The notes beneath the pieces are model-generated. The model was given only the letters and a program-made list of their open reading frames with translations, ran no database searches and was not told the DNA's origin. The position numbers and the translations under genes were made by a program. Positions 19,781 through 23,695 of a stretch of 64,000 nt of DNA are shown piece by piece. Numbering within the stretch: the first letter of the stretch is position 1; every line of letters begins with the position of its first letter. The DNA comes from Streptomyces pristinaespiralis (GTDB taxonomy: Bacteria > Actinomycetota > Actinomycetes > Streptomycetales > Streptomycetaceae): NCBI RefSeq assembly GCF_001278075.1, contig NZ_CP011340.1, positions 2,170,001-2,234,000 of the forward strand. Reading direction: 5' to 3'.

Positions 19781-19905
19781 CGATGTGACAGGTTTCATGC
19801 CGGCGGACGCCCCGCCGGCGGCCCCGGCAACGACATGAGGCGATGAACCTGCCGATTCCCGCACCTGGTGGGCAATTGGACGTACGCCCGGTACAGTCCA
19901 CTCCC

Positions 19906-20940
19906 ATGACCGCGCGGCTCGCCGACATCGCAGCCCAGGCGGGGGTCAGTGAAGCCACAGTCAGCCGCGTGCTCAACGGCAAGCCCGGCGTGGCCGCGGC
20001 CACCCGCGAATCCGTCCTCGCCGCCCTCGACGTGCTCGGCTACGAACGTCCGGTGCGGCTGCGGCAGCGCAGCGCGGGCCTGGTCGGACTGATAACCCCC
20101 GAGCTGGACAATCCGATCTTCCCCGCCCTCGCCCAGGTCATCGGCCAGGCCCTGACCCGGCAGGGATACACCCCGGTGCTCGCCACCCAGACCCCCGGCG
20201 GGTCCACGGAGGACGAGCTCACCGAGATGCTGGTGGACCGCGGCGTCTCCGGCATCATCTTCGTCTCCGGACTGCACGCCGACACCACGGCCGACATGCA
20301 GCGCTACGACCAGCTGCGCGCCAAGGGTGTCCCGTACGTCCTGGTCAACGGTTTCTCGCCGAAGGTGCAGGCTCCCTTCGTCTCCCCCGACGACCGGGCC
20401 GCGATGCAGCTCGCCGTGACCCACCTCGCCTCGCTCGGGCACACCCGGATCGGCCTCGCGCTCGGCCCCAGGCGGTTCGTGCCGGTGCTGCGCAAGATCG
20501 AGGGCTTCCAGCTCGCGATGGAGGAGCGGCTCGGGCTGTCGCCGGAGGCGTCGCAGGAGCTGATCCAGCACTCCCTCTACACCCTGGAGGGCGGCCAGGC
20601 CGCCGCGGCGGCGCTGATCGCCAAGGGGTGCACCGCGATCGCCTGCGCCAGCGACATGATGGCGCTCGGCGCCATCAGGGCGGCCCGGCAGCAGGGGCTC
20701 CACGTGCCGAAGGACATCTCGGTGGTCGGCTTCGACGACTCGCCGCTCATAGCGTTCACAGATCCGCCGCTGACCACCATCCGCCAGCCCGTGCAGGCGA
20801 TGGGGCAGGCGTCGGTGCGCGCGCTGCTGGAGGAGATAGGGGGCACCCCCGCCCCGCACAGCGAGTTCGTGTTCATGCCGGAGCTGGTGGTCCGCGGTTC
20901 GACCGCCTCGGCGGCCAAGCGGACCGTTCCTATTCAGTGA
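19906..20940 (+). CDS. malR: LacI-family maltose regulator MalR
   Basis: 344 residues. LacI helix-turn-helix RLADIAAQAGVSEATVSR at 4-21, hinge DVLGYERPVRLRQR, then the effector domain with PELVVRGSTAS near the end. ATG 19906 gives the standard N-terminus. It is divergent from malE and should repress malEFG-agl and amlA in the absence of maltodextrin. The last residues (AKRTVPIQ) differ from those of the paralogue and the stop lies in the overlap with the TnpB-like gene, so the C-terminus may have been altered by insertion of that element. Confidence 0.93.
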   Translation: MTARLADIAAQAGVSEATVSRVLNGKPGVAAATRESVLAALDVLGYERPVRLRQRSAGLVGLITPELDNPIFPALAQVIGQALTRQGYTPVLATQTPGGSTEDELTEMLVDRGVSGIIFVSGLHADTTADMQRYDQLRAKGVPYVLVNGFSPKVQAPFVSPDDRAAMQLAVTHLASLGHTRIGLALGPRRFVPVLRKIEGFQLAMEERLGLSPEASQELIQHSLYTLEGGQAAAAALIAKGCTAIACASDMMALGAIRAARQQGLHVPKDISVVGFDDSPLIAFTDPPLTTIRQPVQAMGQASVRALLEEIGGTPAPHSEFVFMPELVVRGSTASAAKRTVPIQ

Positions 20941-21190
20941 GCAGGAGTGAGTCTTGGACCCATTCCTGGCCGCTGCGGGCACCCCGAACGGTGTTGGATG
21001 CCCTGGTTGCCCGCGTTCGTTCCGCGTCCGGGGGCACGCATCGTGTGCGTGGTCCGGGGATGCGGGGGCGGGTTTCCTCACGCCCGAGGGCGCCCGGGCC
21101 GGCCTGGACGGTCCGATGCCCCGCACGATCGCTCTGGTCGTGCGGGGGCGGTGTCGTCCGTCGCCGGATCGGGTGCCCTTGGGCGCGTCT
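20930..21190 (-). ncRNA. possible omegaRNA/reRNA region of the TnpB-like gene
   Basis: TnpB genes usually encode their guide RNA at and beyond their own 3' end. Here the reading frame continues about 85 codons past the last catalytic Asp with Arg/Pro/Thr/Gly-rich, non-globular sequence that ends EWVQDSLLLTE. I remember closely similar tails in other streptomycete TnpB-like proteins, which would fit conservation at RNA rather than protein level. The right end and guide start are not defined by sequence alone. Confidence 0.3.
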
Positions 21191-22525
21191 GCCGATCGCG
21201 ATGCTCGCGGCATCGTGACGGCTCATCTTGCGGGTGGGGCTGGTGAGGGGCTTCTGCCAGTGCTGCGCTCCCCACTTCGACGTGTAGGCCGGGTCCACGG
21301 CGATGATCGTCATGCCTGTCCGGTCGGCCATGGAAGTCAGCCGGGCGCGGAGGCGTCCGGTGGGCATGCCGGAGATGAGTTGCCGGAAGCGTCGTCGGCG
21401 GCCGTGTTTCTCCCTGGTCTTCTCGGCCTGGAAGTCGAGGTCCTCGACCGCGATCGCGGTGACGCCGCAGGAGTGGGCCCAGTGCAGGAGGCGGGTGAGG
21501 GCGTGCCGGACTTGGGCGTCGCGGTGGGGGGCACTGCCGGTCAGGTCGTAGGCGAAGCGGCGCGGGTTGCCGATGGGGTTGCCGTGGGTGTCCAGGCGCC
21601 AGGCGGCGAGGTGGTCGGCGTTGGTGTCCACCCCGATCACGCCGTGGGCGAGGGCGGCTTCGAGCGGCACGGTAGAGGTGGGTGGGATCTGCCAGGAGGC
21701 GGTGACGTACCAGCGGCCGCGTCCGGTGTCGTGGTGGATGCGGTAGGCCACGGCCCGGTTCGCCGCCACCCGGTCCGCCCACTCGGAGCCCCGGTGCGCA
21801 AACCGCGCACGCCCGGCGAGTACGTACCGGCCGTGCGCGGCGTTCGCCAGATGGGCCAGCGGGGCCGGGAGCTTGATGCTGACGTCGCCTTCGGGGGTGA
21901 TGCGGATCGTCTCGTTGCCGAACCTCTTCCCCGACTCACCATCCGCCTGGAAGAACCAGCGCTCGGCCTCCCACCGCCGGCGCCACTGGGCTGCGGTCAG
22001 CCCCGCATCGGCAAGGTGATGCCGGGTACGGGCCAGGCGTCGGCCGCCGCGCACCACACGCACCCGGCCCGCGTCCCGGTCGGCCCGCACCCGCCCAAGA
22101 CGGTCCTCCAGCACCCGCAGCCGCCGGGCCTTGGCATGCCACTCCCGCCGCGAACGGTAACCACCCGCGGCACGCTTCGTGCCCTTCGCCCCGACCGGCA
22201 GCGACAACCGGTGCGCAATCGTCCTGATCCCGGCTTCGAGGCCCTGGATGTGTGCGGCCTGCCCGCGCCGGGCCAGTGCCCACTGATCGTGCGTGGCCTT
22301 CGTGATCGACCCGGCCCACCTGGACGACGACACGCCCGTCAGGCCGCGCTTCCGGGCCGCCCACGACTCGGCGGAGTGCTCCAGCCCGTCAGCGCAGCGG
22401 ACCTTGAGATCACGCGAGGCCAGCGAGCCGAGATGCGCACCCACCAGCCGCAGCACCTCCTCGTCCCCGGCTGTCAGGCCCTTCAGCCGGTCACGGACCG
22501 CCACACCCGAAGGTCCGGTGACCAT
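20930..22525 (-). CDS. TnpB-like (IS200/IS605 accessory) RuvC nuclease, stand-alone
   Basis: 531 residues from ATG 22525 (frame open further upstream, but that part is Gly/Trp-rich and not protein-like). The C-terminal half is a RuvC fold: Asp300 in GVIGVDTNADH, Glu361 in AVEDLDF, Asp438 in SRHDAASIAIG, so the catalytic triad of TnpB is complete. The CxxC zinc ribbon normally lying between Glu and the last Asp is absent; YTSKWGAQHWQK stands in its place and has no cysteine. No tnpA is nearby. The N-terminal half (helical, basic) should bind the guide RNA and DNA. RNA-guided DNA cleavage is known for TnpB; for this zinc-less branch it is inferred. The gene converges on malR and overlaps it by 11 bases. 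Confidence 0.85.
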   Translation of the reverse strand: MVTGPSGVAVRDRLKGLTAGDEEVLRLVGAHLGSLASRDLKVRCADGLEHSAESWAARKRGLTGVSSSRWAGSITKATHDQWALARRGQAAHIQGLEAGIRTIAHRLSLPVGAKGTKRAAGGYRSRREWHAKARRLRVLEDRLGRVRADRDAGRVRVVRGGRRLARTRHHLADAGLTAAQWRRRWEAERWFFQADGESGKRFGNETIRITPEGDVSIKLPAPLAHLANAAHGRYVLAGRARFAHRGSEWADRVAANRAVAYRIHHDTGRGRWYVTASWQIPPTSTVPLEAALAHGVIGVDTNADHLAAWRLDTHGNPIGNPRRFAYDLTGSAPHRDAQVRHALTRLLHWAHSCGVTAIAVEDLDFQAEKTREKHGRRRRFRQLISGMPTGRLRARLTSMADRTGMTIIAVDPAYTSKWGAQHWQKPLTSPTRKMSRHDAASIAIGRRAQGHPIRRRTTPPPHDQSDRAGHRTVQAGPGALGREETRPRIPGPRTRCVPPDAERTRATRASNTVRGARSGQEWVQDSLLLTE

Positions 22526-22774
22526 GAACGGCGCCACCAACTCCCGCAGACCACCCACAGTGCCCACCCCCTCCGCACCGGACCACACACACCCGCCACC
22601 ACCCCCAACGACCCACCACCCGCAAAGGTCACCCATTCGACACACGAACCCCCATCCGCCCCGCGAGCCCTCACACACCACAGCCCACAACAACTCACCC
22701 CTACACGCCAGCACTCACACATACACGGTCACGCAGCAGCAGTTCACAACCCCTGGCCGGGACGGATCCGAGGG
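22526..22774. other. strongly strand-asymmetric C/A-rich leader of the TnpB-like gene
   Basis: Between the TnpB-like start and the sugar kinase the plus strand is made mostly of C and A with very few G (CACACACACCCGCC-like runs), unlike any other part of the window. Read on the gene strand it is G/T-rich. It may contain the element's left end and promoter. No gene is supported here. Confidence 0.6.
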
Positions 22775-23695
22775 ATGAGCGAGCCCCGGTACGACGTACT
22801 GGTCGTGGGCGGCACCGGCGTGGACACGATCGTCCGCGTCGACGCGCTGGAAGTGCCTCCGGGTGACTCGCTGTTCGTGCCCCCGGTGCGCGACTACGTG
22901 GGCCACACCGGCAACGGGGTGGCGCTGGGCTGGCGGGCACTGGGACTCGCCACCAAGTTCATCGACTTCCTGGGCGACGACGTCCAGGGCCGGACGGTGC
23001 TCGCCGCGTACGAGGAGCACGGGCTCGATTTCAGCCATGTCGTCTCCCCGCACGGCACACCCCGGGGCATCAACCTGGTCGACCCGCAGGGCCGCCGCTT
23101 CTCCTTCTACGACGGCCGCCACCCCGCCGACCTGCGGCTCCCGCGCGCCTTCTACCTGCCCTACCTGGAGCGCGCCCGGCACGTCCATCTGTCCATCGTC
23201 GGCCACAACCGCGACATGTACGAGGACATCCACCGGCTCGGCATCACCAGCTCCACCGATCTGCACGACTGGGACGGCCGCAATCCGCACCACCGCGACT
23301 ACGCCCTCGCCTCCGACTACGTCTTCCTGAGCGCCGCCGCGCTGCACGGCCGGCTCGAGCCGGTCCTGCACGGCATCATCGACCAGGGCCGGGCACGGAT
23401 GGTCGTGGCGACCGACGGCGCCGAGGGCTGCCATCTTCTGGTACGCGGTGAGGAGAAGGTCCGCCACTTCCCCGCCGTACGCCCGGAACGGCCCGTCGTC
23501 GACAGCAACGGGGCCGGGGACGCGTTCGTCACCGCGTTCCTGCACACGCTGTTCGAGGGCGGCGACGTGGAGCGGTGCGTGCTCGCCGGTTCCGTGTCGG
23601 GCGCCTTCGCGTGCGGCTCGGCCGGCACGCACACCGAGTTCATCGGCCTGCCGGAACTGCGCGCCGCGTGCGCGAGGGCGGCCTTCCCGGCCTGA
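22775..23695 (+). CDS. PfkB-family carbohydrate kinase
   Basis: 306 residues beginning MSEPRYDVLVVGGTGVDTIV, the PfkB first strand. The anion-hole and catalytic base motif DSNGAGDAF is near residue 245, and GNGVALGWRALGL is the N-terminal ribokinase signature. It should phosphorylate a sugar or nucleoside with ATP; the substrate is not evident. ATG 22775 is close behind GAGG. It lies between the TnpB-like gene and the convergent cebG, so it may serve the sugars imported nearby, or may be an older neighbour of malR now separated by the element. Confidence 0.88.
   Translation: MSEPRYDVLVVGGTGVDTIVRVDALEVPPGDSLFVPPVRDYVGHTGNGVALGWRALGLATKFIDFLGDDVQGRTVLAAYEEHGLDFSHVVSPHGTPRGINLVDPQGRRFSFYDGRHPADLRLPRAFYLPYLERARHVHLSIVGHNRDMYEDIHRLGITSSTDLHDWDGRNPHHRDYALASDYVFLSAAALHGRLEPVLHGIIDQGRARMVVATDGAEGCHLLVRGEEKVRHFPAVRPERPVVDSNGAGDAFVTAFLHTLFEGGDVERCVLAGSVSGAFACGSAGTHTEFIGLPELRAACARAAFPA

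Follow-up and report, generated by a model that had tools for sequence, protein, structure and literature searches.

The window examined here, a stretch of 64,000 nucleotides from Streptomyces pristinaespiralis (contig NZ_CP011340.1, positions 2,170,001 to 2,234,000), carries on its reverse strand a tnpB gene inside a putative transposable element, the parts of which are collected in Table 1. An earlier sequence-only reading had seen an open reading frame (ORF) at 20930–22525 and had described its product as a TnpB-like nuclease with the RuvC residues D300, E361 and D438 and with the segment YTSKWGAQHW at residues 414–423 in place of a zinc ribbon; the ORF proved to be real, and these residues lie where that reading put them. 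We place the start at GTG 22558 rather than at ATG 22525, giving a product of 542 instead of 531 aa, and since 542 aa is the length of many homologues, it fits the GTG start.

Table 1. Features of the tnpB element in the window and the basis on which each was placed.
Feature	Position	Strand	Basis
Complete element, from one GG core through the other, ~1.83 kb, assigned to a tnpA-less IS607 type	20924–22751	−	Ends from 10 full and 4 partial copies in the same genome, empty sites of other copies
Left GG core dinucleotide with G before it, part of the predicted target-adjacent motif (TAM) (G)GGT	22750–22751	−	Left flank of the genome's own sites
Left end (LE), non-coding, begins TTGTGAACTGCTGCTG	22559–22749	−	Conserved in the genome's own copies; retained by L025/L026 despite their internal deletion
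tnpB ORF	20930–22558	−	Start GTG 22558; RuvC domain end near residue 450
RuvC-I Asp300 codon	21626–21628	−	D in 121/121 of each clade
RuvC-II Glu361 codon	21443–21445	−	E in 121/121 of each clade
YTSKWGAQHW segment	21257–21286	−	Place of zinc ribbon in ordinary TnpB
RuvC-III Asp438 codon	21212–21214	−	D in 119/121 of own clade; H in 121/121 of sister clade
Predicted omegaRNA (right-end element RNA, reRNA) scaffold, ~283 nt, overlapping ORF tail, 5′ end approximate	20923–21205	−	Periodicity loss, covariation, retention in L025/L026
Covarying RNA stem, arms 21147–21138 and 21128–21119	21119–21147	−	Two-sided changes in 6/10 pairs; 97.1% of cells paired
Covarying hairpin, arms 21003–20996 and 20984–20977, loop 20992–20986 = ACCGTTC	20977–21003	−	Two-sided changes in 5/8 pairs
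GAACGGT, scaffold 3′ end, exact complement of loop 20992–20986, predicted pseudoknot	20923–20929	−	Last base is the fixed right-flanking T
Right GG core dinucleotide	20924–20925	−	Junction AGGAACGG/T seen in the genome's copies and in those of relatives
Predicted guide, initial ~20 nt of the flank, within the 3′ end of the LacI-type regulator gene	20903–20922	−	Modelled on IS607/IS605 reRNA architecture (PMC10711439)

The missing ribbon was followed through 121 proteins of the window's own clade (the query plus 120 listed of 5208 hits, with 7996 candidates scored) and through 121 proteins of a sister clade (the query together with the 120 hits listed out of 6065, among which is the record of the query itself), which shares 43–49% identity with the own clade and has the same ribbon-less segment. 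In the own clade D300 and E361 are present in 121/121 proteins and D438 in 119/121, the other two having Glu, and a CxxC motif between E361 and D438 occurs in 0/121 proteins of either clade (0/242 inspected proteins). Nor was a CxxC found elsewhere; two cysteines alone are strongly conserved, C44 (120/121) and C353 (118/121), and they form no ribbon, while T415, S416, W418, G419 and W423 are kept in at least 120/121 proteins of each clade. In the own clade, ribbon loss together with an intact triad, as first noticed in the single protein, is a family trait and not chance.

A C4 zinc ribbon is present in "many" TnpBs (PMC10711439), and the genome itself offers a comparison in six loci matching the NCBIfam model guided_TnpB (L071–L076), which are canonical zinc-ribbon TnpB genes arranged in three pairs near both chromosome ends, three of the six having been read. 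The window protein has the RuvC D-E-D and TnpB homology in common with them, but in L071, L073 and L075 a CxxC is followed by CxxC or CxC and then by HDRDVNAA, whereas the window protein has RHDAA in RuvC-III, in contrast to the DRDxNAA of known IS607 TnpB. The apparent shift in the RuvC-III register comes from reading RHDAA against HDRDVNAA by eye and not from structural superposition. Rearranged RuvC motifs are already known: Nety et al. (2023) distinguished the TnpB clades Typical (DRDXN), Derived (NADXN), RII-r3, RII-r5 and RIII-r4, and one RII-r5 member cuts DNA (PMC10278001). Foldseek with a predicted model (alignment A2, 70 of 242 proteins) returned AsCas12f (4e-9) and ISFba1 TnpB (1.3e-4); ISDra2 TnpB did not appear in the 50 rows displayed by either Foldseek or VIA-align, which is no evidence against kinship. 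PADLOC and Pfam gave weak Cas12f/TNB matches and nothing else, a PDB sequence search gave no match at E ≤ 1 for the single protein and only matches at E ≥ 0.11 for the alignment, and a profile-profile comparison with three canonical TnpBs (only three sequences; probability 1.6%) was uninformative.

The gene does not stand alone, as the sequence-only reading had supposed: this genome, in which the window lies on an 8.53-Mb contig, holds 10 full-length copies of the element, together with two truncated copies and two that have internal deletions. The full copies share a common left end (..GTGAACTG) and a common right end (..TAGGAACGGT) and occupy nine different sites, two of the ten (L018 and L019) being terminal-repeat twins, and the nine distinct copies are 88–94% identical in nucleotides over codons 1–440. 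With the twin L019 excluded, the ratio of nonsynonymous to synonymous substitution rates (dN/dS) had a median of 0.267 (range 0.18–0.44, 36 pairs), and the RuvC domain is open in 10/10 full copies, the single stop lying at codon 522 of one copy, inside the RNA tail described below. By this measure the coding part of tnpB is under purifying selection. A dying transposon family, with old copies whose tnpA is gone and which decay passively as remnants devoid of present function, would match the divergence among copies, the four partial copies and the lack of any tnpA found in the genome, and some of the selection could date from before arrival, should the copies have come in independently; set against ten open RuvC domains and the low dN/dS, however, we think it rather unlikely.

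That no tnpA lies nearby, as the sequence-only reading had noted, extends to the whole genome, where an IS607 TnpA query found no match near any of the 10 full copies or elsewhere, the same search being positive in 8/14 genomes. The Y1 TnpA of IS200/IS605 elements (PF01797) likewise gave nothing in this genome (control positive in 5/14 genomes), and an IS200/IS605 partner was therefore rejected; the sole PF00239 resolvase found in the genome (L087, 254 aa) is, by reading, without the IS607 N-terminal domain. In relatives of the element, the same-strand upstream ORF encodes a serine recombinase with the N-terminal extension typical of IS607 TnpA, and two such proteins that were scanned matched NF033518 "IS607 family transposase" with 193 and 195 bits (cut-off 110). 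Searches with tblastn placed IS607 tnpA upstream in 12/49 fetched relatives plus one remnant (the 49 being 48 distinct loci, 4 of them with <500 bp upstream) and in 24/80 named loci, these being the best 80 of 419 confirmed (one match is partial; 53 loci are without it and 3 more have <700 bp upstream). They also placed it in 6/7 distant loci (6 genomes of the phylum), in five within ~120 bp and in one at ~490 bp, which argues against a branch outside transposons. The absence of a tnpA partner thus held for the window copy and for most near relatives, and failed for most of the distant loci. A draft genome in 240 contigs (G024) has at least 8 near full-length copies and gave no IS607 tnpA with the same query, adjacency having been checked for part of them.

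Because IS607 tnpA lies upstream of tnpB in these relatives, the window element is, by kinship, probably a tnpA-less member of the IS607 family, an assignment that comes through the relatives and not from the window copy, and that would transfer to IS607 an element with tnpB alone that public records list under IS200/IS605. IS1341-type elements (PMC3627910) likewise have tnpB without tnpA and lack terminal inverted repeats and long target duplications; here, however, the tnpA-bearing relatives identify the parent family as IS607. The sequence-only reading had also entertained a domesticated, stand-alone host nuclease. Such a protein would agree only with the absence of an adjoining tnpA, and it is already contradicted by ten copies with conserved ends at nine unrelated sites, by the empty sites in relatives described next and by IS607 tnpA beside relatives, so that we give it almost no credence.

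Every end of an own copy that was inspected carries GG, and the left flanks of the ten listed own sites read GGG in 10/10 and GGGT in 9/10. To look for empty sites, the two flanks of five of these sites were joined and compared with 61 genomes: site L021 is unoccupied in 23 relatives, with the junction GGGT in 19 and GGAT in 4; site L014 shows GGT in 6/6 relatives, 3 of which have GGGT; site L022 gave one relative, with GGGT; and at site L016, 8 distinct aligned relatives are one base shorter than the joined flanks, matching one shared GGT. Site L015 gave no usable alignment, and no empty site of the window copy was identified, relatives matching the lacI side and not usefully the pfkB side. 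On the right, an end could be recognised in 78 of the 80 named loci, and T follows AGGAACGG in 78/78 of these; the end AGGAACGGT recurs with at most one mismatch in 15/16 sister-clade and distant loci. Finding of the left-end motif was partly successful (any match in 52/80 loci, several of them spurious); 31 unique rows have T after GG, and by reading G precedes in 29 of them, the other two looking like chance matches. The element showed neither terminal inverted repeats nor a long target duplication. These patterns point to GG/GG dinucleotide insertion at (G)GG-T sites, and the predicted TAM is GGGT.

Beyond the RuvC domain the ORF changes in character. Among the ten own copies, third-position variation is 2.0–5.0 times that of the other positions through codon 440 and then 1.06, 1.03 and 1.24 times; in a set of 40 sequences this periodicity ratio falls from 1.8–2.6 to 1.41, 1.31 and 1.05. 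The predicted local distance difference test score (pLDDT) of the model is <50 from residue 453 on, the ORF part over the RNA being predicted to be disordered. By its loss of periodicity, the tail after about codon 441 behaves as RNA and not as selected protein. The two internally deleted copies, L025 (G000:C1 ~309.4–310.0 kb) and its terminal-repeat twin L026, consist of ~250 bp of LE fused to ~280 bp of right end, which begins at window ~21201, the same point as the predicted RNA start; they look like an omegaRNA-only non-autonomous element.

The fold of this RNA was derived from 38 of the 40 right ends (alignment A1; the twin L019 and a duplicate locus were left out) and compared with 15 of 16 distant ones (A4). 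In the 38-sequence fold, two-sided changes occur in 22/65 pairs. For 37 chosen pairs, 95.6% of cells pair, two-sided cells number 203 versus 66.8 ± 8.9 in shuffles (0/500), and the covariation score is 0.375 versus 0.131 shuffled, figures somewhat biased towards the structure, as it was derived from the alignment used for the test; when the partner was slid, at most 32 two-sided cells were left, and further pair types are not above shuffles (281/500). The stem of the ACCGTTC hairpin covaries at 7/7 pairs in the distant set. Between its loop and GAACGGT, 96.6% of cells are paired in the 38 sequences and 99.0% in the 15 distant ones, and in 38/38 and 15/15 of them, respectively, the fixed right-flanking T could form a pair with the loop A. 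The fixed T is predicted to lie in the scaffold, and as the last base of the pseudoknot it would explain why a right-flanking base counts as scaffold. An Rfam scan of 20600–23000 gave no match, so that by this test the RNA is not RAGATH-18-like. Taken as a sequence feature, a structured right-end RNA with a guide-proximal pseudoknot is thus predicted beside the gene, which is in keeping with the suggestion of the sequence-only reading that the protein could be an RNA-guided nuclease of a little-studied branch. The nearest named protein among the listed matches is from Streptomyces pristinaespiralis (93%). The gene as such is not new, as public records already label these proteins "TnpB-related". 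The features of the branch seem undescribed: no description of this branch was found in the literature searched, and the survey of Altae-Tran 2023 may cover them.

We conclude that the window very probably holds a tnpA-less IS607 element with genes for TnpB and its guide RNA and nothing else, the TnpB most likely being an RNA-guided nuclease of a zinc-free branch. The comparisons above give good support to transposon membership, to the RNA and to selection; circle, crossover, expression, formation of a ribonucleoprotein (RNP), TAM, guide and cleavage we infer. An IS607 serine recombinase, present in relatives and absent here now, would have moved the element as a circle, with crossover at GG dinucleotides leading to insertion at (G)GG-T sites. 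TnpB would be translated from the codons up to ~450, and the remaining transcript would yield an omegaRNA of ~280 nt ending in the pseudoknot of element end, GG core and fixed T, with the flank past that T serving as guide. The RNP would then recognise element-free copies of the same site, by the TAM GGGT and then the guide, and the D300-E361-D438 RuvC centre would cut such empty sites, favouring the keeping or re-copying of the element. The short TSxWGxQHW segment takes the place of the zinc ribbon.

All the IS607 TnpB features described in PMC10711439, namely a GG crossover, a TAM (GGG in ISXfa1), a right-flanking base that is fixed and belongs to the scaffold, and a pseudoknot on which activity depends, have counterparts in the window element, where the TAM is predicted to be GGGT. 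With ISXfa1 and ISFba1 the element shares, through its relatives, the serine-recombinase partner, and it would share the GG crossover site and a G-rich TAM (GGG for ISXfa1, AGGAG or GAGGG for ISFba1 and kin; PMC10711439, PMC11061315); an RNA from the right end, a fixed right-flanking nucleotide within the scaffold and a guide-proximal pseudoknot are common to them and predicted here. It differs in its ribbon-free TnpB of ~530–545 aa, as against 387 aa for ISFba1 (PMC11061315), and in a predicted scaffold of ~280 nt, as against ~150 nt for the ISXfa1 reRNA (PMC10711439); processed omegaRNAs of the clades of Nety et al. range from 79 to 466 nt (PMC10278001).

Several observations weigh against this conclusion. 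The failure to find a resident IS607 tnpA makes present mobility doubtful. The relatives of site L016 have no GGGT at the equivalent place, and the own junctions at L014 and L021 are each about one base off a simple insertion model, deviations that we take as decay after insertion. In the 40-sequence set the drop in periodicity is softer, with codons 441–450 still periodic, and the pseudoknot shows no two-sided changes, its support being complementarity and conservation. The protein also falls below the cut-offs of guided_TnpB (47.6 bits against a cut-off of 100, E 1.4e-12, the best stretch reaching residue 417, as compared with 371–385 bits for the six canonical loci), of TIGR01766 (27.9 versus 32, match up to residue 416) and of Pfam Cas12f1-like_TNB (18.8 versus 26.3); the first two matches both stop right where the ribbon would start, and by these profiles the product is homologous to guided_TnpB and TIGR01766 yet outside the curated models. 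Finally, the predicted model is moderate (pLDDT 69.7, predicted template modelling score 0.51), with residues 416–432 below 50.

The third RuvC residue gives reason to consider an RNA-guided DNA binder that does not cleave, a repressor-like or roadblock TnpB whose binding would be used for copy control. Position 438 is His in 121/121 sister-clade proteins, with D and E kept at the other two sites in 121/121, and across the 80 named loci it is D in 70, E in 3, A in 1, H in 1 and unread in 5; moreover, a site that has no ribbon and has its RuvC-III acid directly before the helix AA may not cut. On the other side stand the near-invariant triad of the window clade and the lack of a constant regulatory target, for the flanks, and with them the predicted guides, differ among the nine distinct full copies. 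TldR-type proteins lose the RuvC triad, whereas it is intact in the window clade, as the sequence-only reading had also held. In favour of a binder, some Cas12m with a D-E-D motif bind without cutting (PMC11013384). Cas12m2, which likewise binds without cutting, has H-D-D with an HCCC zinc finger (PMC10442227), as compared with D-E-H without a ribbon in the sister clade, which resembles the nuclease-dead Cas12m and TldR in its changed triad, and with D-E-D in the window clade. On balance we consider a binder-only role unlikely, and cleavage by the zinc-free TnpB remains our preferred reading.

The sister clade (L168, L169, L171–L177, L180; P0122–P0242), many members of which are annotated "hypothetical protein", retains the same right end, hairpin, loop and pseudoknot as the own clade, and nine of its ORFs have a periodicity ratio of 1.7–4.7 through codon 450 and then of 1.77, 1.31 and 1.34. 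Sister-type His loci with tnpA are L175, L268, L270 and L271; the distant L273 has D. It is possible, and we put this forward tentatively and short of an even expectation, that an actinobacterial IS607 TnpB branch dropped the ribbon and rebuilt RuvC-III in the manner of RuvC resolvases, with the acid just before the AA of the last helix, and that its sister clade with a fixed His and the same RNA hairpin and pseudoknot forms with it a natural series from cutting to possibly nicking or binding-only chemistry. In any case, two sister clades that share an RNA core and differ in D-E-D against D-E-H offer clean material on the roles of the ribbon and of the third acid, and the comparisons suggest that a branch whose relatives in the databases number in the thousands (242 of them inspected) can lose the zinc ribbon while triad and guide RNA are kept. 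That the predicted pseudoknot takes in both GG core and fixed T offers a testable account of why, in IS607 guide RNAs, the base beyond the transposon end belongs to the scaffold. The G-rich TAM predicted here (GGGT), together with hosts of high GC content, could be of use for editing the genomes of actinomycetes.

Matches were found in 47/150 Streptomyces genomes (E ≤ 0.001), own genome included and some weak or partial only, and in 10/296 phylum-wide genomes, own and one other Streptomyces included and some weak; the named loci belong to Streptomyces, Nonomuraea, Nocardiopsis, Actinomadura, Micromonospora and Actinacidiphila. In the own genome, L039, L040 and L041 (G000:C1:1586327, 8335533 and 196963) are weak right-end-like matches (73–77% over ~80–100 bp), possibly relics of a related element. 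Next to the window copy, the LacI-type regulator gene (19843–20940, forward strand) receives its last codons and stop from the right end of the element (window 20923–20940), and the tail of this regulator beyond its conserved part varies among relatives.

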